A DNA stretch of 64,000 nucleotides from Paenibacillus baekrokdamisoli. GTDB taxonomy: Bacteria; Bacillota; Bacilli; Paenibacillales; Paenibacillaceae. The number at the start of each line of letters is the position of its first letter. Within the stretch, counting starts at the first letter, position 1. Made by a program: the position numbers and the translations under genes. Shown one piece after another: positions 37,550-55,076 of the stretch. Location: positions 1,922,001-1,986,000 of the forward strand of contig NZ_AP019308.1 in NCBI RefSeq assembly GCF_003945345.1, written 5' to 3'. Below the pieces are notes generated by a model. The model saw only the letters and a program-made list of their open reading frames with translations, ran no database searches and was not told the DNA's origin.

Positions 37550-37583
37550 TCAAAATCCTCCTAAATATAAATGCCAATCTATC

Positions 37584-37775
37584 AGATAATGTTCTTGTGT
37601 TCACGAATCCGAGAGCCTTAAGTGAGCGACAACGAACCGGTCGCAAGACTTAGGCTCGCAGTGGTTGTCCGGCTGAATATGCATCTCTGCTACTGAAATC
37701 ACTTCCCCGAATCAGCTTCTACTACTCCTGTCCGGACCAAGGGCGTATGCCCGCAGCGTGAATACGGTGTTATCT
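37584..37775 (-). repeat. attC-like site 1
   Basis: 192 bp, from AGATAAT to GTTATCT. The terminal C of the left box is T here. Nearly identical to site 24. Contains the stems ATCCGAGAGCCT / AGGCTCG, GTCCGG / CCGGAC and GGGC / GCCC. The stop codon of the Nudix gene lies in its right box. Confidence 0.85.
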
Positions 37776-38225
37776 GCTGTTGCTCTCTTCCGTGAGATTA
37801 CCTGATAAAATCCCTGCTCTTCTTATGATGTTTATTCTTTCCTCTCTTCCTTCTATATTCTTTATCATATCTATTGCTGTTTCAAAATTTGTAATTACAT
37901 AGCCTGTTTTCTCAAATCCTTTTGGCATTTCTAAAATTTTCTTTACTTCCGTTAAGTAATAGACTGTATATCCATTCGATTCTTTCCAGAACCAGCATGC
38001 AAAAGGGGTTCTATTTTCAGTTAATTCAATTCCTGCCTCTTCCATTACTTCCCTATTTAGCCCTTCATCTAACGATTCATTCTCTTCTAATCTTCCACCA
38101 ATTGTTGTTAATACTTTTTCTTCACGATCCCAAACCATAACTAAATTCCCATTTCCCAAAATTGGTACACAATGAACACCGCCAATTGGGAAATCCGTTG
38201 GAATTTCAGTAATAAACTTCAGCAT
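37770..38225 (-). CDS. Nudix hydrolase, copy 1 (cassette)
   Basis: A 151-aa Nudix hydrolase. The Nudix box is GGRLEENESLDEGLNREVMEEAGIE, complete with the REVMEE metal-binding core. The start is ATG at 38225 with GGGAG before it (the frame runs to a TTG at 38240). The TAA stop overlaps the site's GTTA box. It is almost identical to the gene at 57518-57973, with two silent differences that I could find. The substrate is a nucleoside-diphosphate compound of unknown kind. Confidence 0.88.
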   Translation of the reverse strand: MLKFITEIPTDFPIGGVHCVPILGNGNLVMVWDREEKVLTTIGGRLEENESLDEGLNREVMEEAGIELTENRTPFACWFWKESNGYTVYYLTEVKKILEMPKGFEKTGYVITNFETAIDMIKNIEGREERINIIRRAGILSGNLTEESNSR

Positions 38226-38273
38226 AAAAACATCTCCCAAAATAATGGATTAATTTCTCTTTAGAGTAATTGC

Positions 38274-38466
38274 AGATAACGTTCTTGTGTTCACGACGTC
38301 CCACCGACTTAAGGCGACGAAGTCGCCGGGCGCGATGCGCTTAGTCGGTGCGGATGTGTCCGGCTGAATCTGCTTCCCTGCTACTGACAATTACATCTCC
38401 GAGCCCTCATCTAACTTCTGCCGGACCGAGGGGCGAATGCCCCGAAGTGTGAACATGGTGTTAGCT
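38274..38466 (-). repeat. attC-like site 2
   Basis: 193 bp, AGATAAC to GTTAGCT. Ends do not match each other but match the neighbouring cassettes. Stems CACCGACT / AGTCGGTG, GCGAC-GAA-GTCGC, GCGC-GAT-GCGC, GTCCGGC / GCCGGAC, GGGGC-GAAT-GCCCC. Identical to site 25 except one base and the right end. Confidence 0.88.
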
Positions 38467-38480
38467 GAAGTCGAACTCTT

Positions 38481-38984
38481 CTATGAGTAATCTAACTGAA
38501 TTCCCGCTTCTTTAAATGCTTGTTTATAAATATCCTTATCGTGAATTGCTTTAGATGATTTAACAAAATTCGTGTACATTCTTAATTTAACTTCTTCAAT
38601 ATTATTAAACAGTTTTATCAGATCATTATTAATAAATAGGGGTGCCAGAGATAGAACTATCACAGAAAAAACGTTAGGGAATCTAATCTGTATTGTATCT
38701 GCATTGAATATAAAACTCTCCATGTACTTATCAAAATCATAGCAATTATAAATTTCTTCACCTAGTCGAAATGGAAACCCACTTCCGTCTTCCCACTCAA
38801 TTAATAACCCCCAAAATGCTATTAATGATCCAGCACTATACCTATTATGGTTGTCGTTAAAATATAGATAATAGGGATAAAATAATTCATCTGAGCACCA
38901 TGGAAAATCTATTATTCCTTGTTGTTCAATAATTATTTGGGATAAGTAATCGAGCTTATTCTCTAAGGCTATATTTTGCTTCAT
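38481..38984 (-). CDS. Unknown protein (cassette)
   Basis: 167 aa, soluble and rich in aromatic and acidic residues (IIDFPWCSDELFYPYYLYFNDNHNRYSAGSLIAFWGLLIEWEDGSGFPFRLGEEIYNCYDFDKYMESF). I do not recognise a family. ATG has CGGAGGAAGAA upstream. Cassette ends are cognate over ten bases (GTTAGCTGAA / TTCAGCTAAC). Confidence 0.75.
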   Translation of the reverse strand: MKQNIALENKLDYLSQIIIEQQGIIDFPWCSDELFYPYYLYFNDNHNRYSAGSLIAFWGLLIEWEDGSGFPFRLGEEIYNCYDFDKYMESFIFNADTIQIRFPNVFSVIVLSLAPLFINNDLIKLFNNIEEVKLRMYTNFVKSSKAIHDKDIYKQAFKEAGIQLDYS

Positions 38985-39027
38985 TTCTTCCTCCGAGTTT
39001 GCATTCTAAAAGCTCTAGTTCGATTTC

Positions 39028-39213
39028 AGCTAACATTCTTGTATTCACGACGTCCCACCACCTTAAGCCCGAAGGGCGGCCGCGATGCGGTTAGGTGGTG
39101 CGGATGTGCCCGGCCGATTAGACATCTCAGCTGCTGAAATACCTCTCCGAGTCCACTTCTAACTTCTGCCGAACCGAGGGCCGAATGGCCCGAAGCGTAA
39201 TATGGTGTTATAC
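39028..39213 (-). repeat. attC-like site 3
   Basis: 186 bp, AGCTAAC to GTTATAC. Has ATTCTTG where most sites have GTTCTTG, and its right L arm lost bases (GCGTAATATGG), so it may fold less well. Stems CACCACCT / AGGTGGTG, GCCC-GAA-GGGC, CCGC-GAT-GCGG. Confidence 0.85.
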
Positions 39214-39219
39214 GAAGCT

Positions 39220-39600
39220 TCACGACTTCTCCGAATCAGGCCAAGGATCTCCTTCTCTTCTACAATCCCAATCATAATACATTTCTGAATCAAACGGTTC
39301 CTTTGCCATTTCAGTTTCATTTTTTATTAGTTTCAAACCATTTATATTTATTTCATCAGTTAAGAAAACTAAGACATCATGTATTCCACCATCTCTTGAT
39401 TGTTGAATGATATGAGCAAGTATTTGCTTTTGGTCTTGAGATAATCCGTTTATAAATTCATTGATTTTTGAATTCTCTTCAGTCTTTGGCCAACCTTTTG
39501 TTAGTACCCAATTAGATAAGACGCTCAGTCGAATATCGACCAAACCATCAATAAAATCTTTATAGTTTTGTAGGCTTTCTGCTTGTTTATCGTCTTTCAT
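39220..39600 (-). CDS. Unknown soluble protein (cassette)
   Basis: 126 aa, helical, acidic C-terminus (LQNYKDFIDGLVDIRLSVLSNWVLTKGWPKTEENSKINEFINGLSQDQKQILAHIIQQSRDGGIHDVLVFLTDEI). No motif that I can assign. GCGGAGGAACAT precedes the ATG. Ends cognate over ten bases (GTTATACGAA / TTCGTATAAC). Confidence 0.75.
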   Translation of the reverse strand: MKDDKQAESLQNYKDFIDGLVDIRLSVLSNWVLTKGWPKTEENSKINEFINGLSQDQKQILAHIIQQSRDGGIHDVLVFLTDEININGLKLIKNETEMAKEPFDSEMYYDWDCRREGDPWPDSEKS

Positions 39601-39626
39601 ATGTTCCTCCGCATTAGTGAAGTTTC

Positions 39627-39817
39627 GTATAACGTTCTTGTATTCACGACGTCCCGCCGACTTAAGGCTCCGCCAGGAGCCGGCCGCGATGCGGTTAGTC
39701 GGTGCGGATGTGTCCGGCTGAATCTACTTCCCCGCTACTGAAACTGCCTCTCCGAATCCACTCCTAACTCCTGCCGGACCGAGGGCGAATGCCCGATGCG
39801 CGAATATGGTGTTAGGT
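39627..39817 (-). repeat. attC-like site 4
   Basis: 191 bp, GTATAAC to GTTAGGT. The L arms are TATTCACG and CGCGAATA, giving one A-C mismatch on the plus strand. Stems CGCCGACT / AGTCGGTG (one wobble), GGCTCC-GCCA-GGAGCC, CCGC-GAT-GCGG. Confidence 0.85.
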
Positions 39818-39839
39818 GAAGTACAGGCTTCTTGAAATT

Positions 39840-40487
39840 CTATTCAAACTTCCTTCTTATTCCAGCAACCTCTAGTTCTATACCGACTTTATTCAGTGTC
39901 CCTGCAAATCCAGTTCCGTTTCTTTGTGTCCCATCAAATTGAACACTAAATGTATGTTTTCTATGTGGAGCTATGTTAACTACATGTTCTTCAAAATTTT
40001 CAATATCAGGATATTTATCTTTTAATATAGGTTTGATCAATACTTCCTCCTCAATTCCATAGTTATAAATTGTAAATGAACAATTTGCTTTAACATCTGA
40101 TTCAACTGTCTGAAAGTTGCACTTACTATCTTTCATTGAGAAATCTAAAGAATTGATCCCCTTAGAATTATGCTTCAGTAAAAACATAGTTTTCTCACTT
40201 ACAATTGGACAAATCAAGATAAATGCAATGCAACCTATAATAACTCTACTTAATATCTTTGGAAATCGGGGACGATATGTTCTTACTGTACATGACACAC
40301 CAAATATTAGTAACGAAAACCCAAGTAAAGCTGGCAAATGAAGCCCAGTTTCATCTTTATCTGTCCATGGGGACAAGCCAATGAACTTAAATAGATAATC
40401 TCCAAAAGAATTATCCAAATGATTATCAGATATCATCAATAGACCGAGAAGTAAAATAACTACGTAAAGAATATTTTTTCCCTTCAA
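39840..40487 (-). CDS. Membrane-anchored protein with extracellular beta domain (cassette)
   Basis: 215 aa. Three hydrophobic helices (ILYVVILLLGLLMISDN, LPALLGFSLLIFGVSC, ILSRVIIGCIAFILICPIV) are followed by an outer beta-sandwich-like segment of about 100 aa (KCNFQTVESDVKANCSFTIYNYGIEEEVLIKPIL ... HTFSVQFDGTQRNGTGFAG). Start is TTG with TGGAGG seven bases before it. No family recognised. Confidence 0.7.
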   Translation of the reverse strand: MKGKNILYVVILLLGLLMISDNHLDNSFGDYLFKFIGLSPWTDKDETGLHLPALLGFSLLIFGVSCTVRTYRPRFPKILSRVIIGCIAFILICPIVSEKTMFLLKHNSKGINSLDFSMKDSKCNFQTVESDVKANCSFTIYNYGIEEEVLIKPILKDKYPDIENFEEHVVNIAPHRKHTFSVQFDGTQRNGTGFAGTLNKVGIELEVAGIRRKFE

Positions 40488-40522
40488 AGCTCATCCTCCA
40501 TAAAAAGATTTCCCTGTATTTC

Positions 40523-40714
40523 ACCTAACGTTCTTGTATTCACGACGTCCCACCACCCTAAAGGAGCAAAGCGACTGGCCGCGATGCGGTTGGGGGGTGC
40601 GGATGTGTCCGGCAGAATTTGCTTCCCTGCTACTGCCAATTGCATCTCCGAATCCACATCTAACTCTGCCGGACCGAGGACCGAATGGCCCGATGCGTGA
40701 ATATAGTGTTATCC
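40523..40714 (-). repeat. attC-like site 5
   Basis: 192 bp, ACCTAAC to GTTATCC. Stems CCACCACCCT / GGGGGGTG-type, AGCGAAGCGACT hairpin region, CCGC-GAT-GCGG, TCCGGCAG / CTGCCGGA, GGACC-GAAT-GGCCC. Confidence 0.87.
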
Positions 40715-40783
40715 GATGCCTCCGACTTCTCGAACTGCTTACAAACTCTGTTCTTATTACTATTCATTGCTCTTCATGAAGCC

Positions 40784-41044
40784 TTATGGTTGTTTACTTG
40801 ATTGTTCTCTCTGTAAACGTTTTTTTCGTCCGTAATCGATATACGTATATATAACTAGAAATACACCTGGACCAAAAATCAATATAAAATTATCACTGAA
40901 GGCGAACAATAAAAAGTAAAGTACTGACCAAACTGCTATTATTATTGTTTTTTTTAACTTTTTTCTATCTTTATACTTTTCTCTATTGTTGAGCATTTGC
41001 GAAACGATAAGTCCAATAAATATAGTATTTATAATTTGAACCAT
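40784..41044 (-). CDS. Small membrane protein (cassette)
   Basis: 86 aa with about three hydrophobic stretches (QIINTIFIGLIVSQML, TIIIAVWSVLYFLLFAF, NFILIFGPGVFLVIYTYI) and basic loops (KYKDRKKLKK, GRKKRLQR). ACAGGAGGTTACAG precedes the ATG. Between this start and the next site lie 195 bases with no gene visible. Function unknown. Confidence 0.68.
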   Translation of the reverse strand: MVQIINTIFIGLIVSQMLNNREKYKDRKKLKKTIIIAVWSVLYFLLFAFSDNFILIFGPGVFLVIYTYIDYGRKKRLQREQSSKQP

Positions 41045-41238
41045 CTGTAACCTCCTGTGTCTTTATGTGGTTTCGTCCTTAGTACATTACAATCTCATTT
41101 GATTGATATACAAAAACAAGCCTTAGTGGAATTGTAATCCAACTAAAGGCAGTTATCATCAACTTTTTCTTCTCTCATATAGCGACGCTTCCTATGAAAT
41201 AGGAGTAATACTATGCTCTTAAAACACTCGGAGGTTTC

Positions 41239-41430
41239 GGATAACGTTCATGTGTTCACGACGTCCCACCGACTTAAGGCGACGAAGTCGCTGGCCGCGA
41301 TGCGGTTAGTGGGTGCGGATGTGTCCGGTTGATTACGCGTCCCTGCTGCTACCAATTGCATCCCCGAATCCCCATCTACTCCTGCCGGACCGAGGGCCGA
41401 ATGGCCCGAAGCGTGAACATGGTGTTATAA
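41239..41430 (-). repeat. attC-like site 6
   Basis: 192 bp, GGATAAC to GTTATAA. L arms TGTTCACG / CGTGAACA. The E-hairpin is CCGC-GAT-GCGG; the closing stem has CACCGACT facing AGTGGGTG, one mismatch. Confidence 0.87.
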
Positions 41431-41464
41431 GATGTTGGTGCCTTCTTCGAAATATAATCTTATT

Positions 41465-42052
41465 CTAATGCAGTCCTTCAAGATATTTTATTTTAATCTC
41501 ATCAGATTCTCTTCCTGAATCTGTGTATCTAAGTGATAGCTCGTATGCTGTGTCATTATAAATATTTTTACTCCTCCAATCAGCTCCATTGTCTACCAAC
41601 AACTTTAACATCTCGACAGATGTATACTGTTCCTCAGCAGCGCGTATTAAAGGTGTAAAATTGTATTTATCCTTATAATTCACATTTGCACCAGCATCAA
41701 TTAATAGCTTTGCAATTTTGATGTCTTGCTTGCCGGAAGCGATTCCCAATGCTGATTCTTGTATATCATCATCATAATTCAAATTAGGATTCACCCCACT
41801 ATTAAGTAAGTATTCAACTATTTGTTCATGATCATTAAATATTGCCTCGAATAATGCGTATTCAACGACTCCTACTTCCTTTGTTAAATCTTTAATTCTT
41901 TCAAGATCTCCCGATTTAGCCGCCTTTAAATATAAATCTACTTTTAAAGCTCTTTGATGCTCATTCTTGTTTTCCTGAATGTACTGGTAAATAATTATAG
42001 AAAGGATTATTACTATTATACTAATAACACTAATTCCTACTATCTTTTTCAA
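41465..42052 (-). CDS. Membrane-anchored ankyrin-repeat protein (cassette)
   Basis: 195 aa. An N-terminal membrane helix (IVGISVISIIVIILSIIIYQYI) is followed by ankyrin repeats: DLERIKDLTKEVGVVEYALFEAIFNDHEQIVEYLLNSGVNPNL, ESALGIASGKQDIKIAKLLIDAGANVNYKD, FTPLIRAAEEQYTSVEMLKLLVDNGADW. Start is TTG after AGGTGATAAA. Likely binds other proteins at the membrane. Ends cognate (GTTATAAGA / TCTTATAAC). Confidence 0.85.
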   Translation of the reverse strand: MKKIVGISVISIIVIILSIIIYQYIQENKNEHQRALKVDLYLKAAKSGDLERIKDLTKEVGVVEYALFEAIFNDHEQIVEYLLNSGVNPNLNYDDDIQESALGIASGKQDIKIAKLLIDAGANVNYKDKYNFTPLIRAAEEQYTSVEMLKLLVDNGADWRSKNIYNDTAYELSLRYTDSGRESDEIKIKYLEGLH

Positions 42053-42146
42053 TTTATCACCTGTTTCCTATATATTCCTGAACATTTGGATAGTAATTGC
42101 ACTACAAAGAAATGCAATACGATTTTTTGGGGTTTGCGCCAATTTC

Positions 42147-42307
42147 TTATAACGTTCTTGTGTTCACGACGTCCCACCGACTTAAGGCGACAAAGTCGCC
42201 GGGCGCGATGCGCTTAGTCGGTGCGGATGTGTCCGGCTGCCTCCACTCCCCCGAAATCCCTCTGCCGGACCGAGGGGGCTCGTCCCCCGATGCGTGAACA
42301 CGGTGTT
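42147..42307 (-). repeat. attC-like site 7, interrupted at its crossover box by an IS
   Basis: TTATAAC at the left; the right end breaks after GTGTT at 42307. The matching continuation GTTATGTGATG is found at 44704-44714, beyond the inserted element. Stems CACCGACT / AGTCGGTG, GCGAC-AAA-GTCGC, GCGC-GAT-GCGC, GTCCGGC / GCCGGAC, GGGGG / CCCCC. Confidence 0.85.
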
Positions 42308-42411
42308 GAACTAAACCGCTTCGCGGTAGCTTTTTAAACCCAGTAAATCCCTACTTCAATTACAGCACACTTTCCTTTAGTCTCTACAGATAAAAAGGAT
42401 GGTGTTTACTC

Positions 42412-43263
42412 ATGCAAGATTTCACGCAAGCAATGACAGTCTCCATGGAACTCAGAGGCTTTGCCAAAAGCACACAAAGAACGTACTTGGCCCACATTCA
42501 GCGGTTTTCTCAGTTTTGCGGCAAATCTCCCATTTCCTTCGGCTATGAGGAGGTTAGAGCCTTTCTACATTATGCCATCACTGTTAGAAAACTTAGCTCC
42601 GCCTACGTCAACTCTGCCTATGGCGCCATCAAGTTTTATTACCAATCCGTGCTCTGCCTCGATTGGAACATGCAGCATGTCCCTCGAATGAAGAAGAATT
42701 CTTCGCTGCCGATCATCTTGACAGCACCGGAGGTGCTCCGCCTCCTTGACGCTACCTCGAATCTCAAGCACAAAGCCATTCTTTCTACCATCTATTCCGC
42801 TGGACTTCGAGTCAGTGAAGCTGCTCATCTCCGCATTTCCGATGTGGACAGCAGCAACATGCGTATTTTCATTCACCAATCCAAGGGCAACAAGGACCGC
42901 TATTCCCTTTTATCTGAAAAAAATCTGCTGCTCCTCCGCCAATACTGGAAAAGTTATCGCCCTAGCTCTTGGTTGTTTCCCGGCATGTCCGCCGCAGCGC
43001 CTATTTCGACTCGAACGATTCAATCCGTTTTCAAGCAATCACTACTTGCTTCAAGTATTTCGAAGGATGTCTCCGTCCATACGCTGCGCCATTGCTTTGC
43101 CACCCATCTGCTGAACAACGCCGCTAGCATTCTCCAAATCAAAGAACTGTTAGGGCACGCGGATATTCAGACGACTTCCATGTACCTTAATCTCACCCAT
43201 GCTCAGGTGCTCGGTCTGAAAAGTCCCCTTGATCTTCCCTATGGGGGTGATGCTCGTGATTGA
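42412..43263 (+). CDS. Tyrosine recombinase of the IS91-type element
   Basis: 283 aa, XerC/D-like. An N-terminal SAM-like domain (MELRGFAKSTQRTYLAHIQRFSQFCG) precedes the catalytic part: Arg I in YSAGLRVSEAAHLRI, HTLRHCFATHLL (HxxR), LGHADIQTTSMYLNL with the nucleophile Tyr, ending LGLKSPLD. It lacks the about 20-residue insertion that marks integron integrases between the Lys region and HxxR. Some IS91-family elements are known to carry such a gene next to the transposase. I therefore do not consider it the array integrase. Confidence 0.88.
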   Translation: MQDFTQAMTVSMELRGFAKSTQRTYLAHIQRFSQFCGKSPISFGYEEVRAFLHYAITVRKLSSAYVNSAYGAIKFYYQSVLCLDWNMQHVPRMKKNSSLPIILTAPEVLRLLDATSNLKHKAILSTIYSAGLRVSEAAHLRISDVDSSNMRIFIHQSKGNKDRYSLLSEKNLLLLRQYWKSYRPSSWLFPGMSAAAPISTRTIQSVFKQSLLASSISKDVSVHTLRHCFATHLLNNAASILQIKELLGHADIQTTSMYLNLTHAQVLGLKSPLDLPYGGDARD

Positions 43264-44398
43264 GTTGCCGGACGTATTCTCTCATTTCGCCGCGCCCTTT
43301 CTTGCTTCTCATCCTGTTCATGTCGAAGGACTCAAAGCCGCGAAAGCGATTGTCCATTGCCGTACGGCGGCCCTGGGCGGGCATCTTCATCAATGCGATT
43401 CCTGTGATGATGTGAAAATCTCCTACAATTCTTGCCGCAATCGCAACTGTCCGAAGTGTGGAAATTTGAAGAAAGAGCAGTGGATTTTGGATCGTTCCTC
43501 TGAACTGCTACCTGTTCCTTATTTCCATACCGTCTTTACCGTCCCACACCAGTTGAACCCATTGTTTCTTGCCAATCCGTCACTTATGTATGCGTTGCTG
43601 TTCAAGGCAGCATCCCAAACCCTTACGAAGCTCGCGTTGGATAAAAAGTTTCTCGGTGCTCAAATTGGTGTCACGATGGTGCTTCATACGTGGGGACAGA
43701 ATCTGTCGTTCCATCCCCATGTTCATTGTATTGTGCCTGGCGGCGGTCTTTCTCCTTCGGGCTGCTCGTTTGTGCAATCGAGGAAGAAATTTTTCATTCC
43801 TATCAAAGTGCTCTCTAGGATGTTCCGAGGCAAATTGCTTTATCTCGTAAAACAAGCCTTCGCCCAGCAGAAGCTCCTCTTTACAGGCTGTTCCTTACCT
43901 TTTGCGGAGGAATCCTCCTTTCAGGCATTACTTGACGCGCTCTATGCGATGGAGTGGGTGGTCTACTGTAAAAAACCGTTTAAGACTCCCTACCATGTGG
44001 TGCAATATTTGAGTCGATATACGCACAAGACTGCGATTTACAATAATCGGCTCGTCGCCATGGATGACGCTTCCGTCACATTTCAGTACCGAGATTACAA
44101 GGATCAGAGTAAAGTTAAGTCCTTGAAACTGGATGCTATGGAGTTTATGCGCAGATTTATGCTGCATGTTCTTCCCTCCGGTTTTCAGAGGATTCGGTAT
44201 TATGGATTCCTCAGCAACTGCAACCGGAAGACTAAGCTGCACACCTGCTTGCGCATAACTCGTACCCCCATCAAGCCCAAGGTGAAGCTGACGGCTAAGG
44301 AGCTTATTTTGAAGTTAACCGGTAGAGATCTGTCGATTTGTCCTTCGTGCAGCGGGAATTGGTGTCAGCTAACGACCTTGCACCCTTCCGACGGTTGA
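43229..44398 (+). CDS. IS91-family HUH transposase
   Basis: Up to 389 aa. Zinc-finger region CDSCDDVKISYNSCRNRNCPKC, the HUH motif SFHPHVHCIVPGGG, and the catalytic Tyr region YLSRYTHKTAIYNNRL are all present, so it looks active in rolling-circle-type transposition. The frame opens with a TTG at 43229; a GTG at 43256 with GGGGG eight bases upstream is the more likely start. It overlaps the recombinase gene, indicating coupling. Confidence 0.92.
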   Translation: MIFPMGVMLVIELPDVFSHFAAPFLASHPVHVEGLKAAKAIVHCRTAALGGHLHQCDSCDDVKISYNSCRNRNCPKCGNLKKEQWILDRSSELLPVPYFHTVFTVPHQLNPLFLANPSLMYALLFKAASQTLTKLALDKKFLGAQIGVTMVLHTWGQNLSFHPHVHCIVPGGGLSPSGCSFVQSRKKFFIPIKVLSRMFRGKLLYLVKQAFAQQKLLFTGCSLPFAEESSFQALLDALYAMEWVVYCKKPFKTPYHVVQYLSRYTHKTAIYNNRLVAMDDASVTFQYRDYKDQSKVKSLKLDAMEFMRRFMLHVLPSGFQRIRYYGFLSNCNRKTKLHTCLRITRTPIKPKVKLTAKELILKLTGRDLSICPSCSGNWCQLTTLHPSDG

Positions 44399-44639
44399 CG
44401 TGCTTCAATAGAATAATTGGTTCTTGCGCAGCCTGCCACGGGGAGGGGGAAGCTATGCCTTCAATCGGTACGAAGAGTCGCTGACCTCAACCATGGTACT
44501 CACTATTAACACCCAGGTCTCCATTGAAGCAGATGGAAAGTAATAACAAACCCCATAGGTTCGTTCGTACGACGGCTTCGTTCAACATGGATTTGCGCAA
44601 TTGCCCTCCGACTGTATTGCTCATATGATCATGAGCTGT

Positions 44640-44676
44640 TGACCTTCATTGTTGTGCTTTGAAGGTCATTTTTTTC
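44640..44676 (+). terminator. Terminator near the right end of the IS91-type element
   Basis: TGACCTTCA / TGAAGGTCA-type stem with loop TTGTTGTGCTT, followed by seven Ts. It lies about 240 bases after the transposase stop. Confidence 0.75.
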
Positions 44677-44753
44677 TGGGCAACTGCGCAACCAATCCAG
44701 AGTGTTATGTGATGTCGCTTCTTCCTAGAATAACAAACACAGAACTTATCGTC

Positions 44754-45113
44754 TCAGAACTGATCTTCATTATTCATTTCTTGGAAGTTCCTTTCTTCTT
44801 TCGATCTTTTTATTTTTAATAAAAAAGCCACTGGAAAAATGATTGCGGAAATAATGAAAGCAAATATACCCAAAATTAATCCTATTAAAGGAAACGTATC
44901 TATTGAGAAGCCAATGTCAGATGTAAAACAAAATATTGACCATAGAATATAACCTACTATTATGTAAATAAGAGTAATTAAAAATCCTATAACTATACTT
45001 TTAGTTTTACTTTCCCCTTTCAAATACGTTTTAATTGCAACTTTATATCCAAGAAATAAAGTAATCATCAGGTAAATTATATAAATCCGTAGACCTAATA
45101 CATCTATCTCCAT
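44754..45113 (-). CDS. Four-helix membrane protein (cassette)
   Basis: 119 aa, about four helices (IYIIYLMITLFLGYKVAI, IVIGFLITLIYIIVGYILWSIFCF, FPLIGLILGIFAFIISAIIFPVAFLL), charged tail KRSKEERNFQEMNNEDQF. GAAGGTGA precedes the ATG. No family recognised. Its left cassette end was separated from site 7 by the IS, yet remains cognate to site 8 (GTTATGTGA / TCACATAAC). Confidence 0.7.
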   Translation of the reverse strand: MEIDVLGLRIYIIYLMITLFLGYKVAIKTYLKGESKTKSIVIGFLITLIYIIVGYILWSIFCFTSDIGFSIDTFPLIGLILGIFAFIISAIIFPVAFLLKIKRSKEERNFQEMNNEDQF

Positions 45114-45181
45114 TTTATTTCACCTTCATTTGAGTTTGTTCTCTTGAGAATTTCGGTCTTTTCACTTGAATAAGCGATTTC

Positions 45182-45343
45182 ACATAACGTTTCCGTGTTC
45201 ACGATGTCCCACCACCTTAAGCGAACATAGTGAGCGGCCGCGATGCGGTTAGGTGGTGCGGATGTGTCCCGGCAATCACTTCCACGGCCTATCTTCCGGG
45301 ACCGAGGGGGCTTGTCCCCCGATGCGTGAACACATTGTTATAT
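45182..45343 (-). repeat. attC-like site 8
   Basis: 162 bp, ACATAAC to GTTATAT. The second long hairpin is GTCCCGG / CCGGGAC instead of GTCCGGC / GCCGGAC, a compensated change. L arms GTGTTCACG / CGTGAACAC; third hairpin GGGGG / CCCCC. Confidence 0.88.
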
Positions 45344-45380
45344 GATGGATCGGCCTTCTCTGATATACCTACGTTTCCTT

Positions 45381-45836
45381 TTATAGCCCTTCTTTTTCTT
45401 CCAAGTTTAAAACGTGACTTGCTTTATGTATTCCTTCTGCTCTTGAGAATCCAATATTTCTGTAAAATTTATCAGCAATTGGGTTCTCAGTATATAAAGT
45501 TATTAATCGAAAATACTTCTCTGATTCCTTAATGATCATCTCTAAGAGTTTTTTTCCTACGCCACTACATCTGTGCCTCGGTAAAACGTATAAGTGTCTC
45601 ACTCGACCTACATCAATAAGATCGAGATAAGGATCAATATTTAAACCACCTATCCCTATGACTTCCTCATCAACTATTGCTACAAATAACGATTCCCCAA
45701 ATCTATTAAATCTATTACTTCCAATTTTGTATTCATCAAGTAATTTCTGAACAAATTTATATCCCTCAGATAAGCTATTATCTAATAACAAATTCAAATT
45801 GTACTGTTCGAGAAGACTAACTCTTTCAACAATCAT
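45381..45836 (-). CDS. GNAT-family N-acetyltransferase (cassette)
   Basis: 151 aa from the ATG at 45836, which has GAGGGTG nine bases upstream; the frame runs on into site 9 but that part would be read-through of the site. Acetyl-CoA motif HLYVLPRHRCSGVGKKLLEMIIKES, then FRLITLYTENPIADKFYRNIGFSRAEG. Substrate unknown. Ends cognate (GTTATATGA / TCATATAAC). Confidence 0.87.
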   Translation of the reverse strand: MIVERVSLLEQYNLNLLLDNSLSEGYKFVQKLLDEYKIGSNRFNRFGESLFVAIVDEEVIGIGGLNIDPYLDLIDVGRVRHLYVLPRHRCSGVGKKLLEMIIKESEKYFRLITLYTENPIADKFYRNIGFSRAEGIHKASHVLNLEEKEGL

Positions 45837-45878
45837 CGTAGTATTCACCCTCATTTGACAATTGGTTGCCGATCTTTC

Positions 45879-46065
45879 ATATAACGTTCTTGTATTCACG
45901 ACGTCGAAAGACTTAAGGGATTGATCGGATCGGCGCAGCCATCCATCACACCGGTTCGCGTAGCGAAATTAGTCTTGCAGATGTGTCCGGCTGATTCCGC
46001 TTCCCTGCTTCTCAACTTCGGCCGGACCAAGGGCGTCAGCCCGCAGCGTGAATACGGGGTTATAT
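45879..46065 (-). repeat. attC-like site 9
   Basis: 187 bp, ATATAAC to GTTATAT. First branch is of the CGAAAGACTTAAG ... AGTCTTGCAG type, shared with sites 12 and 20. Long hairpin TCCGGC / GCCGGA; third hairpin GGGC-GTCA-GCCC. Confidence 0.86.
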
Positions 46066-46108
46066 GTTGTCGGGGCCTTCCCTGAGCTACTACCAATATG
46101 TATTTCTC

Positions 46109-46570
46109 TTAAACTACTTCTCTTATTTTCTTTAGGAAATTATTGATTATCGGTATATCTGGAGGGCTTATTTCACTCGGTATATCTTGAATATTAAAGA
46201 ACTTTATATCCTTCACTTCTTTTTCATCCAGGTTAATATTGCCTTGATATTCCCTACAAGTATAAGCAACTATAACGTTATAAACTTCATCTCCATGGGG
46301 GTACTGATAATATAAGTCCTTCCCCGAAAATACATCTAACAAATTTATCTCATCTGCAATTAGCCCTGTTTCTTCAAATAATTCTCTTTTTGCTACTTCT
46401 TCCATGGATTCGCCTGGCTCTAGTGATCCTCCGGGTAAACCCCATAAACCATTATCCGCTCTAAGTTGTAAAAGTATCCTGTCTTGTTTATCGATTATTA
46501 TTACGCATGCTCCTGTCATTATTAAAGGCCTTGTACCTACGATTTGTCTAAGATCCATAATATATCCCAA
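46109..46570 (-). CDS. Nudix hydrolase (cassette)
   Basis: 153 aa. Complete Nudix box GGSLEPGESMEEVAKRELFEETGL in a MutT/ADP-ribose-pyrophosphatase-like context (NGLWGLPGGS). Start is TTG at 46570 with AGGAGG nine bases before it; an ATG four codons later is possible but too far from the ribosome site. Different from the Nudix pair at 37770 and 57518. Confidence 0.88.
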   Translation of the reverse strand: MGYIMDLRQIVGTRPLIMTGACVIIIDKQDRILLQLRADNGLWGLPGGSLEPGESMEEVAKRELFEETGLIADEINLLDVFSGKDLYYQYPHGDEVYNVIVAYTCREYQGNINLDEKEVKDIKFFNIQDIPSEISPPDIPIINNFLKKIREVV

Positions 46571-46635
46571 AAGTTACATCCTCCTAAAAATATTTCTAAT
46601 TTACTTTTGACTTTATCAGCCCTTGCCCCGATTGC

Positions 46636-46799
46636 ATATAACGTCTTTGTATTCACGAACCCTCACTGGCTTAAGGGGCGCATGCCCCGGGTCCGGCGGA
46701 CTGAGCCAGTGCAGGGTTGTCCGGCTGTCCCCCACTTCCCCGAAATCCCTCTGCCGGACCGAGGGCCGGATGGCCCGATGCGTGAATACGGTGTTATAA
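46636..46799 (-). repeat. attC-like site 10
   Basis: 164 bp, ATATAAC to GTTATAA. First branch AACCCTCACTGGCT / AGCCAGTGCAGGGTT, hairpin GTCC-GGC-GGAC; GTCCGGC / GCCGGAC; GGGCC-GGAT-GGCCC. One of the family with GAACCC in place of GACGTCC (also 14, 17, 28, 30, 31). Confidence 0.88.
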
Positions 46800-46832
46800 G
46801 ATGTTCCCGCCTTCGAAGCAATGCTCGAATCA

Positions 46833-47144
46833 TTATAATTTATATTTAAATAGTGGTACGTTTATAGGTGTAATCGAAATAAGTCGTGGGCGCTGCCATA
46901 ATCTCTTTTTATATTGAATGTCATATTTTTCATCTTTATTTATTAAATTAGAAATATTAATATTTATTGATATTTCAGTCGTATGATTATCTTTATCTTG
47001 TACAAGAATATTGTGACTACCTGCCACTACCAGTGTAATTCTCTCTTCGGCCGTAATATCAATTAGATACCAACAACCAAACAAAATTAGGCTTAATAGT
47101 ATCAATGCAGACTTAATTGGATTACTATTCTTATTATCTCCCAT
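46833..47144 (-). CDS. Membrane-anchored small protein (cassette)
   Basis: 103 aa. One N-terminal helix (SALILLSLILFGCWYLIDI) and an outer or inner polar domain (LVVAGSHNILVQDKDNHTTEISININISNLINKDEKYDIQYKKRLWQRPRLISITPINVPLF). ATG at 47144 has GAGGTG eight bases before it. Unknown function. Confidence 0.65.
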   Translation of the reverse strand: MGDNKNSNPIKSALILLSLILFGCWYLIDITAEERITLVVAGSHNILVQDKDNHTTEISININISNLINKDEKYDIQYKKRLWQRPRLISITPINVPLFKYKL

Positions 47145-47197
47145 CAAATTATCACCTCATTTTGTATTTAAGATTCTGTGGACTTTGCGGGAATTTC

Positions 47198-47346
47198 TTA
47201 TAACGTTGTTGTATTCGCGACGACCATTCCCCTTAGATAACTCTTATCTTAGGGGAATGGATGTATCTGCCTGAACCCTTCTTCCTCGAGAATACTTCTG
47301 GCAGATCAAGTGCCGTATGGCCCGCAGCGCGAATATGGTGTTATCT
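47198..47346 (-). repeat. attC-like site 11, short form
   Basis: 149 bp, TTATAAC to GTTATCT. L arms TATTCGCG / CGCGAATA (compensated). First branch is one long hairpin CATTCCCCT...AGATAA / TTATCT...AGGGGAATG without sub-hairpins. Long hairpin ATCTGCC / GGCAGAT (compensated). Confidence 0.87.
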
Positions 47347-47376
47347 GAAGTATCAAGCCCACCTTGAACCCGACTT

Positions 47377-47964
47377 CTAAATCTCTATAATATGGTATCC
47401 AAAAGCATTTATTATCTCTGTCTTCTTATAATGATGTATTCTTTGGTTTCTTCCATAGTTCAAATGTTGATGGCCATGTAACAAATATCTAGGATTATAT
47501 TGGTTCATAAATTCTATAAAGCATTCAAATCCTCTATGACATAAATCATCACCGTCTCCAATTCTGTAAGCTGGGGCGTGTGTCACTAAAATATCTACGC
47601 CATTACTTAGCCATAGCCTTAGCTTAAGTTTAGTTATTCTCCAACTCATTTGTCTTTCTGAAAATTGATATTCTCCGGGGCTGTAGCGGTAACTACCACC
47701 AAGTCCCAATATGCGAATTCCATTATAAGTAACTATTCTATCTTCAATGCTTTCGCACCCTTCAGGTGGATCTGATTTGTATTTAGTATCATGATTTCCA
47801 TGAACATAAAATAAAGGAGCGTTAATCATGCTCACTAGAAAAGATAGATATTCTGCTTTAAGATCACCGCAAGAAATAATTATGTTGATGTCCTTAAACT
47901 TCTTGGGTTCAAAATGATCCCATATGTATTTTGATTCTTCATCGGAGATAACTAATATTCTCAT
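47377..47964 (-). CDS. Metallophosphoesterase (cassette)
   Basis: 195 aa, calcineurin-like phosphoesterase. Motifs ILVISDEES (D at start), ISCGDLKAEYL (GDL), FYVHGNHD (GNHD), ILVTHAPAY and LLHGHQHLNYG (GHxH) are all present. GGAGGAGATTAA precedes the ATG. Related to YfcE/DR1281-type small phosphoesterases; substrate unknown. Confidence 0.92.
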   Translation of the reverse strand: MRILVISDEESKYIWDHFEPKKFKDINIIISCGDLKAEYLSFLVSMINAPLFYVHGNHDTKYKSDPPEGCESIEDRIVTYNGIRILGLGGSYRYSPGEYQFSERQMSWRITKLKLRLWLSNGVDILVTHAPAYRIGDGDDLCHRGFECFIEFMNQYNPRYLLHGHQHLNYGRNQRIHHYKKTEIINAFGYHIIEI

Positions 47965-48012
47965 TTAATCTCCTCCGGTTTAGATCTTAATAAAAGCACT
48001 GCTTGATATTTC

Positions 48013-48198
48013 AGATAACGTTCTTGTGTTCACGACGTCGAAAGACTTAAGGGGTGATCGGATCGGCGCAGCCATCCATCATACCGGTTCGCGAAGCGAG
48101 ATTAGTCTTGCAGATGTGATCGGCTGAATCTACCCCCGGCTCTTCTACTTCGGTCCGGGCCAAGGGCGCAAGCCCGCAGCGTGAATACAGTGTTATAC
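48013..48198 (-). repeat. attC-like site 12
   Basis: 186 bp, AGATAAC to GTTATAC. L arms GTGTTCACG / CGTGAATAC, one G-T pair on the plus strand. First branch of the GAAAGACTT ... AGTCTTGC type; third hairpin GGGCG-CAA-GCCC. Confidence 0.86.
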
Positions 48199-48216
48199 GC
48201 AGTTATTGACCTTTCC

Positions 48217-48999
48217 TTAAAATAATGTTTCTACTTCTCTTGAACTTGAAAATATATATCTTTGTGAATTTCTTAGAGTCATTGAATTGATTCTATTTAC
48301 TGTCAAAGTATCTACATTCCAAATCAATGGTAACCTATCTTCCCAGCCCCCTAGTAGACATACTACAGGACTCAATGGAAATGTAACTTGAACGTTTGGA
48401 CTATTAAATCCTGTAAAAACCATCTCTTGATTGTTTGGATCTGCAACGACAACTGGATTGTCAGAAGTGACGAAACAACTCCCCTCTGAAGCAGTCATTA
48501 AACACCAATTCATCCCTAATAATAAATGGCTAACTGAATGAGTAGTTCTTATTACAGCATCCATATCAATAGAATTTGGAATATCCGTTCGTTTTAAAGT
48601 AATTTCTAGCTGTTTCCTATATTCCTCATTATTCAACACTACTGATGACAAATCTCTAAACAAAGGAACTCTAGCCCGCATTGAATATATAAACTTACAG
48701 AAATTTAATCTTTCAGAACGTGATATATATTTGTATTATAAAATTTTTCTTAGAATTCTTGCTGAAATGTCTTCTATTTTCCCAAAGTCATCTTCAACAA
48801 TTGTGGTTAAGTCTCCATTTTCATCTTTTATATCGTTAAATCCTTTAATATAACCTATGTTATTAGGTGCTTTCTTTTTCAAAGTTTTCTCTTTTAGATC
48901 TATAACCCAAAGATATGGTTCATATTTTGCTGGTACATTAGGATCTGTAAAATACCTTAAGTAAAACTGAGGAATATAGTGGTGGTCTCTTTTCTCCAT
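48217..48999 (-). pseudogene. DUF4238 protein interrupted by one in-frame stop (cassette)
   Basis: The 5' part starts KRDHHYIPQFYLRYFTDP, the DUF4238 hallmark (HHxxPxxYLxxF), and reads to ILRKIL, then TAA at 48738-48736, then continues in the same frame YKYISRSERLNFCKFIYSMRARVPLFRD to CFVTSDNPVVVADPNN and VTFPLSPVVCLL, which is typical of the family's C-terminal half. The full unit would be 260 codons. One base change explains the break. GGGGGATTTCA precedes the ATG. DUF4238 proteins often occur in defence or mobile regions. Confidence 0.8.
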
Positions 49000-49046
49000 T
49001 GAAATCCCCCTGAATATTAATTTAAAATGTTTAGGTCAGCAATTGC

Positions 49047-49235
49047 GTATAACGTTCTTGTGTTCACGACGTCCCACCACCTTAAGCCCGAAGGGCGGCC
49101 GCGACGCGGTTAGGTGGTGCGGATGTGTCCGGCTGATTCCACTTCCCTGTTGCTGCCAATTGCATCCCCGAATCTTCAGCTGACTCCTGCCGGACCGAGG
49201 GGCGAATGCCCCGAAGCGTGAACATGGTGTTATAG
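49047..49235 (-). repeat. attC-like site 13
   Basis: 189 bp, GTATAAC to GTTATAG. L arms TGTTCACG / CGTGAACA. Stems CACCACCT / AGGTGGTG, GCCC-GAA-GGGC, CCGC-GAC-GCGG, GTCCGGC / GCCGGAC, GGGGC-GAAT-GCCCC. Confidence 0.88.
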
Positions 49236-49300
49236 GGTGTAGGCGACTTCTTGAGTTCCCTTACTAGTGTTTCTCGGTTTCTATATTGATTTACGTCTTT

Positions 49301-49558
49301 TTATAATATGTTTCTATCTAGGTAATTCAATGTTTCTTCAAGACTTTTAAATGCTTCATCGTGTCCTGAAAAATCTATTCCAATTGTTACTTTCCTTCTT
49401 GTAATTCCAACACCATCATTATTTGTAACTTGTATTTCAAAATAGTTTAAGTGATTGTCATTCACACTAACCCAGATACATTCTCCTGATGGCTCTAAAT
49501 AAATATTCCAGCTGGGATATCTGTTAAGCAAGAGTTCTTTCAATTTATTAAACTCCAC
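49301..49558 (-). CDS. Small unknown protein, paralogue of the 58290 cassette
   Basis: 85 aa (VEFNKLKELLLNRYPSWNIYLEPSGECIWVSVNDNHLNYFEIQVTNNDGVGITRRKVTIGIDFSGHDEAFKSLEETLNYLDRNIL). It aligns without gaps in most of its length to the gene at 58290-58550; shared blocks are RYP-WN-Y-EPSG, GVGITRR and IDFSGHDEAFK-LEET. I place the start at GTG 49558, with GGGGGA seven bases upstream, because it lines up with ATG-Glu in the paralogue. Family unknown. Confidence 0.78.
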   Translation of the reverse strand: MEFNKLKELLLNRYPSWNIYLEPSGECIWVSVNDNHLNYFEIQVTNNDGVGITRRKVTIGIDFSGHDEAFKSLEETLNYLDRNIL

Positions 49559-49622
49559 AGAACAATCCCCCATGATGAAAGTATAGATAAAGAATTGAAT
49601 GCACTTGCACTTCGCCTATTTC

Positions 49623-49785
49623 CTATAACGTCTTTGTATTCACGAACCCTCACTGGCTTAAGGCGCGAACGCGCCGGGTCCAACGGACTTAGCCAGTGCA
49701 GGGTTGTCCGGCTACTTCCACTTCCCCGAAATGCCCCTGCCGGACCGAGGGCCGGATGGCCCGATGCGTGAATACGGTGTTAACT
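49623..49785 (-). repeat. attC-like site 14
   Basis: 163 bp, CTATAAC to GTTAACT. First branch AACCCTCACTGGCT / AGCCAGTGCAGGGTT with sub-hairpins GGCGC-GAAC-GCGCC and GTCC-AAC-GGAC. GTCCGGC / GCCGGAC; GGGCC-GGAT-GGCCC. Confidence 0.88.
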
Positions 49786-49837
49786 GAAGTTGCTGACTTC
49801 TTCGAATTTACATAAATTTTCTTTCTATGATTGGTTC

Positions 49838-50389
49838 CTAATATTCCAACTCTTTGTCTAAAAATTTATGCCCTTTACAATAATATTCAAGCAATATCCT
49901 TCGAGATCTATAATCGATTTCATAGTAAATTCCTAATGCATATCTACAAACATGCTCCGGCAAAGTTTTCCCATCAAAAGACCATATTTCGTCATAGCTA
50001 TCTTTAGTTAGAGCAATTAATCTAAATCTATCATTATCTTTCTCATCTTGTTTTCGACCAGACTTTTTCATTTCTATAGCAATTAAATTATCTTGTTCGA
50101 TTATATTACCTCGACTATGAACAATGAGGTCACAATTGATCTTTACTACAATATCCTTAGGCCCCCGAATAGTTTTTAGAGAGGTTTTAACCTTCCCATT
50201 TTTGTTTCGATTGTATTCGACGTCTACTTTGTAGTCTATAAATTCAGAATTCTTAATAAAGTTATATATATGTATCATTAATGCACCACAGAGCGTCCGC
50301 TCAGATACTTTTGAAAGTAGTAAATCTATATCACTTCTTATGAAACTTTTATTTGCATCTTCAAATATTTTAATAAGCCTTTCCTCCAT
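49838..50389 (-). CDS. PD-(D/E)XK-like nuclease-fold protein (cassette)
   Basis: 183 aa. The segment INCDLIVHSRGNIIEQDNLIAIEMKKSGRKQDEKDNDRFRLIALT carries D...ExK spacing of a PD-(D/E)XK active site, and the flanking NKNGKVKTSLKTI and helical N-terminus fit such a fold. I infer a nuclease-like enzyme, possibly defence related, but homology is not certain. GGAGGTTACTT precedes the ATG. Ends cognate over ten bases (GTTAACTGAA / TTCAGTTAAC). Confidence 0.65.
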   Translation of the reverse strand: MEERLIKIFEDANKSFIRSDIDLLLSKVSERTLCGALMIHIYNFIKNSEFIDYKVDVEYNRNKNGKVKTSLKTIRGPKDIVVKINCDLIVHSRGNIIEQDNLIAIEMKKSGRKQDEKDNDRFRLIALTKDSYDEIWSFDGKTLPEHVCRYALGIYYEIDYRSRRILLEYYCKGHKFLDKELEY

Positions 50390-50431
50390 AAGTAACCTCC
50401 AACAAGATTTCTATGATTATTCAGCAATTTC

Positions 50432-50597
50432 AGTTAACGTTCTTGTATTCACGAACCCGAGAGGCTTAAAGGAGCGTATGCGACTGGGTAGCTTAGCCAC
50501 TTAGCCTCGCAGGGTTGTCTGCCTGCTCATACTTCTCCGAATTGCTTCGGGCAGACCAAGGGGGCTTGTCCCCCGCAGCGTGAATACTCTGTTATGT
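50432..50597 (-). repeat. attC-like site 15
   Basis: 166 bp, AGTTAAC to GTTATGT. First branch AACCCGAGAGGCT / AGCCTCGCAGGGTT; long hairpin GTCTGCC / GGCAGAC (compensated); third hairpin GGGGG-CTTGT-CCCCC. Confidence 0.87.
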
Positions 50598-50632
50598 GAT
50601 GTCACAGTCCTCTTCGATAAACCTTATAAAAT

Positions 50633-51199
50633 CTAATCATTCCACATTCTTGTTACTTCTTCTAATTCTAAGTCCTCGAATTGCATTTTATAGATATCTG
50701 GTTTCTTTAATTGATTCAAAAATTCCAAGCCAAAAGCTGGATCAAAATGATTCATCATCAAAGTCATTACAAGACCATGAGTCCCGATTGCTATTTTCTT
50801 CCCGCTGTGCTCTTTTAATATGGGTTTTAGAACTGAGATTGCTCTTTTCTGACAATCAGCATTAGACTCTCCACCCGGCAAGGTATAATCAGGGTCATTA
50901 AAACTCTCTCTGATACTAGACATTAACTCTGCATTTTCAATAATATAAGATGTAAAATGACGTTCTCTAAGATCTTCAAATACTTTAATATCTAACTTTA
51001 AGTGCTCGGCCAATCCCTCAACACTAAGAATTGCTCGAGTATAAGGACTTGATATAATCATGTCTATTCCTTCACCTATAAGTAACTTCGTTACTTTTTC
51101 AATATCGATCTTTCCTTTTGGGGTAAGCCCTCTTGTTCTTTCATTTCCTTCATTGTATGGTGATTCTCCATGCCTAACCATATAGATAATTGTCTTCAT
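50633..51199 (-). CDS. Histidine phosphatase (phosphoglycerate-mutase-like, cassette)
   Basis: 188 aa. Catalytic RHG motif in IIYMVRHGESPYNE, then ISSPYTRAILSVEGLAEHL with the second Arg, Glu in FEDLRER, and IGTHGLVMTLMM with the second His. The ATG at 51199 has GGAGG five bases upstream; an ATG four codons earlier overlaps that ribosome site. Substrate unknown. Confidence 0.9.
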   Translation of the reverse strand: MKTIIYMVRHGESPYNEGNERTRGLTPKGKIDIEKVTKLLIGEGIDMIISSPYTRAILSVEGLAEHLKLDIKVFEDLRERHFTSYIIENAELMSSIRESFNDPDYTLPGGESNADCQKRAISVLKPILKEHSGKKIAIGTHGLVMTLMMNHFDPAFGLEFLNQLKKPDIYKMQFEDLELEEVTRMWND

Positions 51200-51245
51200 A
51201 CAGGCCTCCATTAGATGCTTTCATTAAATATAACACTGTGATTTC

Positions 51246-51392
51246 ACATAACCTTCGTGTATTCACGACGTCGATCCCCCTTAGATAGCTCTTATCTTAG
51301 GGGGATCGATGTGTCCGGCTGCTTCAACTTCCCTGAAATGCCTCTGCCGGACCGAGGGCAGAATGGCCCGATGCGTGAATATGCTGTTATAC
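51246..51392 (-). repeat. attC-like site 16, short form
   Basis: 147 bp, ACATAAC to GTTATAC. First branch is a single hairpin CGATCCCCCT.AGATA / TATCT.AGGGGGATCG with one T-T mismatch. GTCCGGC / GCCGGAC remains; third hairpin GGGC-AGAAT-GGCCC. Confidence 0.87.
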
Positions 51393-51415
51393 GACGTAAT
51401 TGCCTTCTCGATTTA

Positions 51416-51886
51416 TCATTCAAAAATTGCTCTTTCAGTGTATTCTCTAATAAATATCTCTTTTGGATATGGATTTACTATAGGGGGGATCTCCGTTTCT
51501 TTAAAGTACTTTAATTCTTTCATTTCATCATTATCCGGAGTTAGTTTTCCACCGATAACTTTACATTCAAATACGATCGTCAAGTATTCTACTTTATGTC
51601 CGTTACTGTAGATATATCGATGTTTTTCTCCTCCAAACACACCAATGATTCGTTCAGGTGTAACTACTAATCCGGTTTCTTCCAAGACTTCTCTACAAAC
51701 TGCTTCATTTGGGGTCTCGCTTATTTCTATTGCTCCAGCAATTAGTCCCCATACATCTTCATTATGTTTCCGTCCAAATAGAATTTCATTTTCTTCATTT
51801 CGTATTATGCCAACCACAGCAGGCACGAATATTAATTCTGGTCCAAACTTATTTCTTAAGTCTTTGTAATAGTCCGACATGGACAT
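51416..51886 (-). CDS. Nudix hydrolase (cassette)
   Basis: 156 aa. Nudix box GAIEISETPNEAVCREVLEETGL with the WGLIAG lead-in common to MutT-like enzymes (one Gly of the usual GG is Ala). AAGGAGATTTATCTT precedes the ATG. This is the third distinct Nudix type in the array. Ends cognate over ten bases (GTTATACGAC / GTCGTATAAC). Confidence 0.88.
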   Translation of the reverse strand: MSMSDYYKDLRNKFGPELIFVPAVVGIIRNEENEILFGRKHNEDVWGLIAGAIEISETPNEAVCREVLEETGLVVTPERIIGVFGGEKHRYIYSNGHKVEYLTIVFECKVIGGKLTPDNDEMKELKYFKETEIPPIVNPYPKEIFIREYTERAIFE

Positions 51887-51935
51887 AAGATAAATCTCCT
51901 TTTATTTCTTTTGGCCTGCAATAAGCAATTATGTC

Positions 51936-52101
51936 GTATAACGTTCTTGTATTCACGAACCCTCACTGGCTTAAGTGAGCGATAGTGAACGGGTCCGACG
52001 GACTTAGCCAGTGCAGGGTTGTCCGGCAGAAGTCACCCTCGGCACTTCTACTTCGGTCCGGACCAAGGGCGTAAGCCCGCAGCGTGAATACGGTGTTATA
52101 C
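51936..52101 (-). repeat. attC-like site 17
   Basis: 166 bp, GTATAAC to GTTATAC. First branch AACCCTCACTGGCT / AGCCAGTGCAGGGTT with GTCC-GAC-GGAC; long hairpin GTCCGG / CCGGAC; third hairpin GGGC-GTAA-GCCC. Confidence 0.88.
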
Positions 52102-52170
52102 GCTGTTGCTGGCTATAAAGCGTTTCTCGGAAAATTTAATAACCGGTACAGAATGTACCGGCCATTGGAT

Positions 52171-55072: not shown

Positions 55073-55076
55073 GAAG

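Follow-up and report, generated by a model that had tools for sequence, protein, structure and literature searches.

An IS91-like element with an integron-integrase-related recombinase that probably prefers integron attC sites

An element related to the insertion sequence (IS) IS91 interrupts an integron attC site in the genome of Paenibacillus baekrokdamisoli, which consists of one contig of 7.26 Mb (NZ_AP019308.1). We analyzed bases 1,922,001-1,986,000 of its forward strand, and this whole stretch of 64,000 nucleotides is termed "the window". The element, present as a single copy in this genome, encodes an HUH transposase preceded by a tyrosine recombinase related to integron integrases. Comparison of its sequence with copies from other genomes suggests that this IS91-like and presumably rolling-circle lineage probably prefers attC sites and has entered them recurrently at one and the same position.

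In integron cassettes, the R'' box pairs with R' when the cassette forms a circle, and the array in the window follows this rule closely. Among the 30 neighboring attC pairs of the window, of which 29 were readable and one was skipped, the five bases after GTT (the R'' tail) complement the pentamer preceding AAC in the following site at 5/5 positions in 28 pairs and at 4/5 in the remaining one (mean 4.97, vs. 3.41 against the left box of the same site), and thus the cassette boundaries lie at the left box of each attC. The element starts after ...GTGAACACGGTGTT (42307) and ends with ...AATCCAGAGTGTT (44706), followed by ATGTGATG. A first attC profile, built on 15 cassette sites of the window, matches 42147-42307 and ends at the element, at model position 188 of 194; a second profile, built on 57 sites touching no listed junction, ends there at model position 157 of 162 (E = 3.6e-37). 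Because the ATGTG that follows the element is complementary at 5/5 positions to the R' box of the site after it (TCACATAAC), the two halves come from a single box of a single cassette, and as this pairing holds across the element, the empty site can be reconstructed as GTGTTATGTG with zero bases lost. A natural empty site was not found, the neighboring cassette being present only in the host among the 117 genomes searched. The first-pass annotation of this DNA had placed the element exactly in a cassette site with GTGTT at both borders and had noticed the pairing with the next site; both claims hold, with exact coordinates and a profile match that stops at the junction. Its assignment of the split to the crossover box (GTTRRRY) has to be corrected, since the split box is R'' (GTT^ATGTG, the caret marking the junction, between GTT and RRRY) beside the 3' end of the cassette gene, not R'. 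The split lies on the bottom strand of attC, and the genes of the element run opposite to those of the cassettes. As GTT (or GTGTT) is shared by the element end and the target, a duplication is indistinguishable from an element end.

Copies in other genomes were gathered by searching 196 related genomes at the DNA level and 392 genomes of the order at the protein level, and by a right-end pattern search in 392 genomes, a right-end DNA search in 394 genomes of the family, an alignment search in 398 genomes of the phylum, one scan of a genome collection (30 loci) and a plasmid search (one record); the genome sets overlap. Two additional searches aimed at fresh copies added no loci, and two transposase scans of viral contigs gave no relatives. 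A 15-base left-end pattern was also run on viral contigs, where the matches listed were mostly judged to be chance, and was not used. Pattern matches at L053 '+' 3295, L053 '-' 5807 and L077 '+' 9083 were dropped as the inverted inner motif of right ends, and those in G043 (L085) and the viral contig L213 as chance, the rest of the end being missing. The G211 pairs L073/L075 and L074/L076, probably overlapping contig ends, were counted once; L231, L230, L244 and L236 repeat L044, L045, L046 and L047, and L092 and L214 are the same stretch. Two assemblies deserve a remark of their own: in contig C1 of G211, the copies and surrounding DNA near the start recur near the end, probably reflecting a circle left unclosed in the assembly, and L053, a contig of a UBA2203 metagenome-assembled genome (MAG), holds incomplete copies of related elements, in either orientation, within one 8-kb stretch.

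Among the nearer copies, the left border is GTT^GAAC in 10/10 such ends that were read (the window, two each in G211 and G046, G132, L059, G702/L242, L053 '+' and the more distant L053 '-'), while no left end was recognised in L064. Further relatives from Bacillota, with 42-53% transposase identity, show GTT^G[CT]AC or GTT^GAAC. The second profile ends exactly at the border in five of 23 left junctions from three genomes (the window, G211 twice and G046 twice), all at the same model position as in the window, in the same orientation and with E-values from 3.6e-37 to 3.4e-15; at L242, an upstream match covers the 5' part of an attC (E = 0.0025). A structure rule (a TAACG-type box, a stem and GTT), restricted to GTT-bordered left ends, is satisfied by 8/21 left junctions compared with 238/4,346 control GTT sites (p = 9e-6), and by 6/21 compared with 95/4,346 when a stem of 6 is demanded; one of the eight positives, L234, passes through a box that may be a chance match. 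Four extra GTT-bordered ends (the second L045 left end at 114, which has a short flank, L050, L054 and L251) contribute one positive, L251 from a Legionella antarctica plasmid, which brings the totals to 9/25 and 7/25 (stem of 6).

The right border was assessed in 18 flanks with a matrix of 35 uninvaded R'' tails, six of 41 sites being left out for mislocated GTT boxes. At threshold 5, the matrix fits 14/18 right flanks and 25 of the 1,948 other GTT sites of the window (1.3%), and at threshold 6 the counts are 12/18 and 13/1,948; the misses at threshold 5 are G132, L056, L059 and one G046 copy. Outside the 18 stand G046 C1:96 and L047, whose flank AGGCGAA ends with the contig after seven bases. 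A complementary R' box (five bases plus AAC) lies within 3 kb downstream in 10/18 copies, compared with 94 of 1,693 control GTT sites (5.6%, p = 8e-9). As judged by eye, the partner coincides with the evident start of an attC in six of the nine cases outside the window (G211, L088, L220, two in G046 and L046); L053, G108 and L044 are less clear-cut. No partner was found within that span for one G211 site, L083, L068, L059, L056, G013, plasmid pPC03 and G132, where the L083 and L068 loci stop about 1.5 kb past the element, short of the 3 kb. Given the kinship among copies, three identical tails, the five bases partly shared by the tests and their post hoc design, the p-values serve as guides only. 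The Paenibacillus crassostreae plasmid pPC03 (L214, 4867-5133) carries a deletion derivative of the element, with the right end only, in an attC; it is typed as mobilizable. This derivative also occurs in G211 contig C4, and G211 shares 600 identical bases with a plasmid of this species.

These flanks also bear on a simpler explanation, that GTT or GTGTTA suffices as a target and attC is hit merely as a carrier of this motif. Right flanks begin with GTTA in 15/18 cases, with GTTC in two (one MAG) and without GTT in one. Copies outside attC also follow GTT, G132 does not sit in an attC, and 6/7 left ends read among the proteobacterial relatives described below follow a trinucleotide ending in TT, all as plain sequence targeting would have it. 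However, the share of ordinary GTT sites that pass the tail threshold is far from that of the copies, and the five profile-confirmed attC copies share one orientation, so that we regard this explanation as unlikely. When the window controls other than attC are narrowed to the 90 GTGTT sites, 22% pass their attC-tail threshold. The coordinates of the element and its surroundings are collected in Table 1.

Table 1. Features of the element and of the cassette array around it (positions within the window)
Feature	Position	Strand	Remark
Cassette array	37583..63646	+	31 attC in the window; cassette genes on the - strand
Target attC (bottom strand = window + strand), R'' box interrupted after GTGTT	42147..42307	+	nhmmer
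IS91-like element, 2399 bp	42308..44706	+	both ends common to copies in other genomes
Left end GAACTAAACCGC...	42308..42330	+	similar motif inverted within right end
Tyrosine recombinase, 283 aa, IntI/XerA-like, without IntI-specific insertion	42412..43263	+	
IS91-family HUH transposase (Zn_Tnp_IS91 + Y2_Tnp)	43250..44398	+	
Inverted copy of left-end motif (GACGGCTTCGTTC)	44571..44583	+	just inside right-end hairpin
Right-end hairpin AACATGGATT...AATCCAGAGTGTT, AACA/TGTT box outside long stem	44584..44706	+	
Remainder of split R'' box, ATGTG	44707..44711	+	5/5 pairing with R' of next site
Next attC, R' box TCACATAAC at 45180-45188 pairing with ATGTG tail	45180..45345	+	

The element starts with GAACTAAACCGCTTCGCGG and ends with a structure that itself resembles an attC. 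The last 123 bases of the window copy fold as AACATGGATT-TGCGCA-TTGCCC ... GGGCAA-TGCGCA-(ACC)-AATCCA-(GAG)-TGTT, and the left-end motif lies inverted (GGCTTCGTTC) just inside this hairpin. Folded singly, 11 of the 14 right ends form the inner stem, three of the 14 being cut or decayed on the 5' side, and AAC/GTT is kept in 9/9 sequences of a consensus fold for which G132 and the near-copy L088 were set aside from the eleven complete right ends. Three relatives of a second group likewise show GGTTTAGTAC- or GGTTCAGTAC-type motifs, AAC, a long stem and GTT. At L044, the 116 bases immediately before the left border are identical to the right end of L044 itself, as a rule of hairpin plus GTT predicts. 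With a core followed by a hairpin bearing AAC...GTT, the element is laid out as the mirror image of a gene and its attC.

Several observations weigh against a preference for attC or against the structural reading of the ends. The second profile has no match at the border in 18/23 left junctions, and the attC-like character of L059, L047, L045, L069 and the second L065 copy was assigned largely by eye. G132 lies in an apparent coding stretch with GTGTGTT on its left and a right end without GTT; L061, the first L065 copy and several distant relatives have no visible attC; the right flank of L046 is of attC type and its left flank of coding type; and G046 C1:96, with an attC on the left, has a right border (GTATT^AAGTATTA) without fit. 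The GTT at both borders leaves the cut position within GTT not placeable. In the right-end hairpin, the outer AACA/TGTT box is paired in just 6/14 ends, one of them a duplicate, and covariation is slight (two-sided change in 3/30 pairs, one of them in the outer stem), and thus the hairpin is supported by its symmetry, not by covariation. The stem energy before the junction is unremarkable in most copies, and a stem score whose rule was picked after looking at the data puts 2/13 attC-type (p = 0.09) and 5/22 other left flanks (p = 0.01) in the top 5% of 1,750 controls; stem energy and this simple score separate attC copies from controls poorly, whereas the profile and pairing tests do separate them. 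Distant relatives carry ATT, CTT, ATA, AAA and AAT as left trinucleotides as well as GTT, and the hairpin that precedes L053 '-' carries its attC-like boxes in reverse orientation. Some copies thus do lie outside attC, although they do not rule out a role of the site, the outcome that the first-pass annotation had named as decisive. One might finally ask if copies merely persist in arrays, which are tolerant DNA where insertion is harmless, with no targeting at all; since the site is entered at a single base position and the insertions are not spread over the cassettes, we give this idea hardly any credence.

How would such an element recognize its target? The first-pass annotation had considered folded sites as targets; that cassette sites are targeted is carried by the left-profile, right-tail and R'-partner counts (5/23, 14/18 and 10/18), and folding of the site may matter as well. 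HUH transposases are a class of enzymes acting on single strands, and we infer single-stranded or circular DNA as the mobile form of the element. The bottom strand of attC, when single-stranded during replication or transfer, would fold into a hairpin ending in GTGTT; the enzyme would cut 3' of a hairpin plus GTT both at the right end of the element and in the target and would join the two, such that a folded attC may be hit as a mimic of the element's own right end. We lean toward the HUH transposase as the likelier cutting enzyme, at about even confidence. Its family assignment is clear (PF04986, 208.2 bits; PF14319, 103.3 bits; NF033538 equivalog, 451.8 against a cut-off of 125), and its start codon is unsure between 43241 and 43250, either of which overlaps the recombinase stop.

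The second enzyme of the element offers an alternative nested within the same attC-targeting claim: its tyrosine recombinase might integrate a circle with the joint GTGTT^GAAC into a folded attC at the shared GTT, leaving the HUH transposase to make only the circle or the copies. Integron integrases join cassettes at G^TT. The recombinase (PF00589, 125.7 bits, and PF13495) scores 183.5 bits with the integron-integrase model TIGR02249, below the curated cut-off of 265; among solved structures, 2A3V (named IntI4) is the nearest to it in sequence. As the first-pass annotation had noticed, it ends in an IntI-like LGLKSPLD (AGVRSPLD in IntI1) and lacks the IntI insertion, both of which are seen in the alignment with IntI1. 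The R-K-HxxR-H-Y residues, whose roles we presume from general knowledge, are present. In a tree of 45 recombinases, rooted for drawing only, the 32 IS-linked ones (24 from genomes and eight from proteobacterial plasmids) form one branch with support of 97/95, whose neighbors are a branch with IntI1 and another made up of six Bacillota integrases, and which is apart from four Xer rows, one of them a long branch; three of the six Bacillota integrases, those that were aligned, also lack the IntI insertion. This kinship, the GTT common to both borders and the cassette-like, mirrored layout of the element with its right-end hairpin are what this alternative would lead one to expect. On the other hand, the insertion lies at R'', whereas IntI uses R', the recombinase is without the IntI-specific insertion, and proteobacterial relatives possess such a recombinase with no attC seen by eye at their ends. 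We therefore keep integration by the recombinase as a tentative possibility, somewhat short of an even chance.

Whichever of the two enzymes cuts, they appear to have traveled together. Between transposase and recombinase trees of 27 elements, 13 of 24 splits are common, compared with a mean of 0.17 and a maximum of 4 for shuffled labels, indicating that the two genes were inherited together. IS91-family transposases preceded by a recombinase gene are known to IS databases and occur in plasmid annotation, and among proteobacterial relatives the recombinase accompanies an IS91-family transposase in 7/7 regions taken from the top of the transposase match list, the eighth plasmid region having been chosen by its recombinase. 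At the ends of these proteobacterial relatives no attC was seen by eye, with no profile run on them, and L251 satisfies the loose structure rule. Integrases were also noted near related elements: a Bacillota-type integron-like integrase (L046:4697-5488, - strand) lies on the same contig as a second-group element, and in a Thermodesulfovibrionia MAG some 0.8 kb separate an IntI1-like integrase (L050:3290-4111, - strand) from the left end of an IS91-like element, which itself follows a stem and GTT. A bolder idea, doubtful at present, is that the transposon is a mirror-image integron cassette, consisting of a core with inverted ends and an attC-like hairpin, where recombinase and HUH transposase would act on folded single strands and entry and exit at R'' would be scarless. 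If true, such a mirror-image cassette transposon would link rolling-circle IS elements with integron cassettes, and its recombinase could be kin to the ancestor of the integrases that handle attC.

The array into which the element has inserted extends beyond the window. The first profile located, besides the 31 sites of Table 1, another 11 attC up to 9.7 kb right of the window (L071, up to 11635), giving 42 sites in total. An integrase gene is found 10.7 kb right of the window, 1.0 kb past the last attC found, as a C-terminal fragment of 158 aa from the first ATG (L071:12683-13159, - strand); its counterparts in G211, G046, G108, G013, G496 and L046 are stop-to-stop frames of 366-422 aa. No match of the integron-integrase model above the IntI cut-off was obtained among eight genomes, and the matches in G211, G046, G108 and G496 are interrupted where the IntI-specific insertion would be. 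The position of the element within an array flanked by an integrase fragment raises the thought that a host integron integrase captured it as a cassette. Such a capture is expected at the R' boundary, but the element lies inside an R'' whose halves still pair, and the integrase at hand is a fragment; because of the R'' position we reject this scenario as very improbable. Firmicutes integrons are already on record in the portions of the literature available (PMC8618304), and our literature search turned up no paper on such a cassette array in Paenibacillus.

CTTG is a target tetranucleotide of IS91. The available part of one paper also states that IS91 targets GAAC/GTTC tetranucleotides (PMC7758954). 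The element shares the transposase family of IS91 and ISCR and differs from them in its attC target, the GTT on its left and the upstream recombinase gene; given the HUH family match and right flanks that are mostly GTTA, it is IS91-like by enzyme and not an IS91 subtype by target. The IS91-like ISShvi3 adjoins an attC in a Shewanella integron, where no IS interrupting attC was detected according to the part of PMC9229058 available, and our comparison with it relies on this published description. In the open-licence literature, as far as its text was available, no report was found of IS91-type elements inserting in attC. An integron gene cassette resembles the element as a unit followed by an AAC...GTT hairpin with GTT at each junction, and differs in being bounded at R' (G^TTRRRY), while the junction of the element lies in R'' and the element carries its own mobility genes.

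From its repeated insertion at one attC position, as read from sequence, the lineage belongs with the attC-targeting elements, of which two unrelated kinds are already known, group IIC-attC introns and IS1111-attC elements. An HUH element would be a third kind, entering the same base region and strand in the same orientation as the introns, and would suggest that the bottom strand of attC is a general landing site. It would also offer a test of the availability of folded attC as a single strand in cells, and of the reason for which a tyrosine recombinase akin to integron integrases is part of an IS91-like lineage that occurs in several phyla. IS1111 elements invading attC are named in the available parts of PMC9229058 and PMC12444791, and IS110/IS1111-type elements use a DEDD transposase according to that of PMC11187229; this enzyme is unrelated to those of our element, which has HUH and tyrosine recombinase domains only. 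The closest parallel in target is offered by the group IIC-attC introns, which, as the available excerpts describe, insert at R'' of the attC bottom strand (TTGT/T; PMC7923331) and are oriented opposite to the cassettes (PMC9229058), in likeness to this element in spot, strand and orientation. A domain search found no reverse-transcriptase domain in its two proteins, and a ribozyme was not searched for; the introns are retro-mobile ribozymes, whereas the proteins of the element are an HUH transposase and a tyrosine recombinase.

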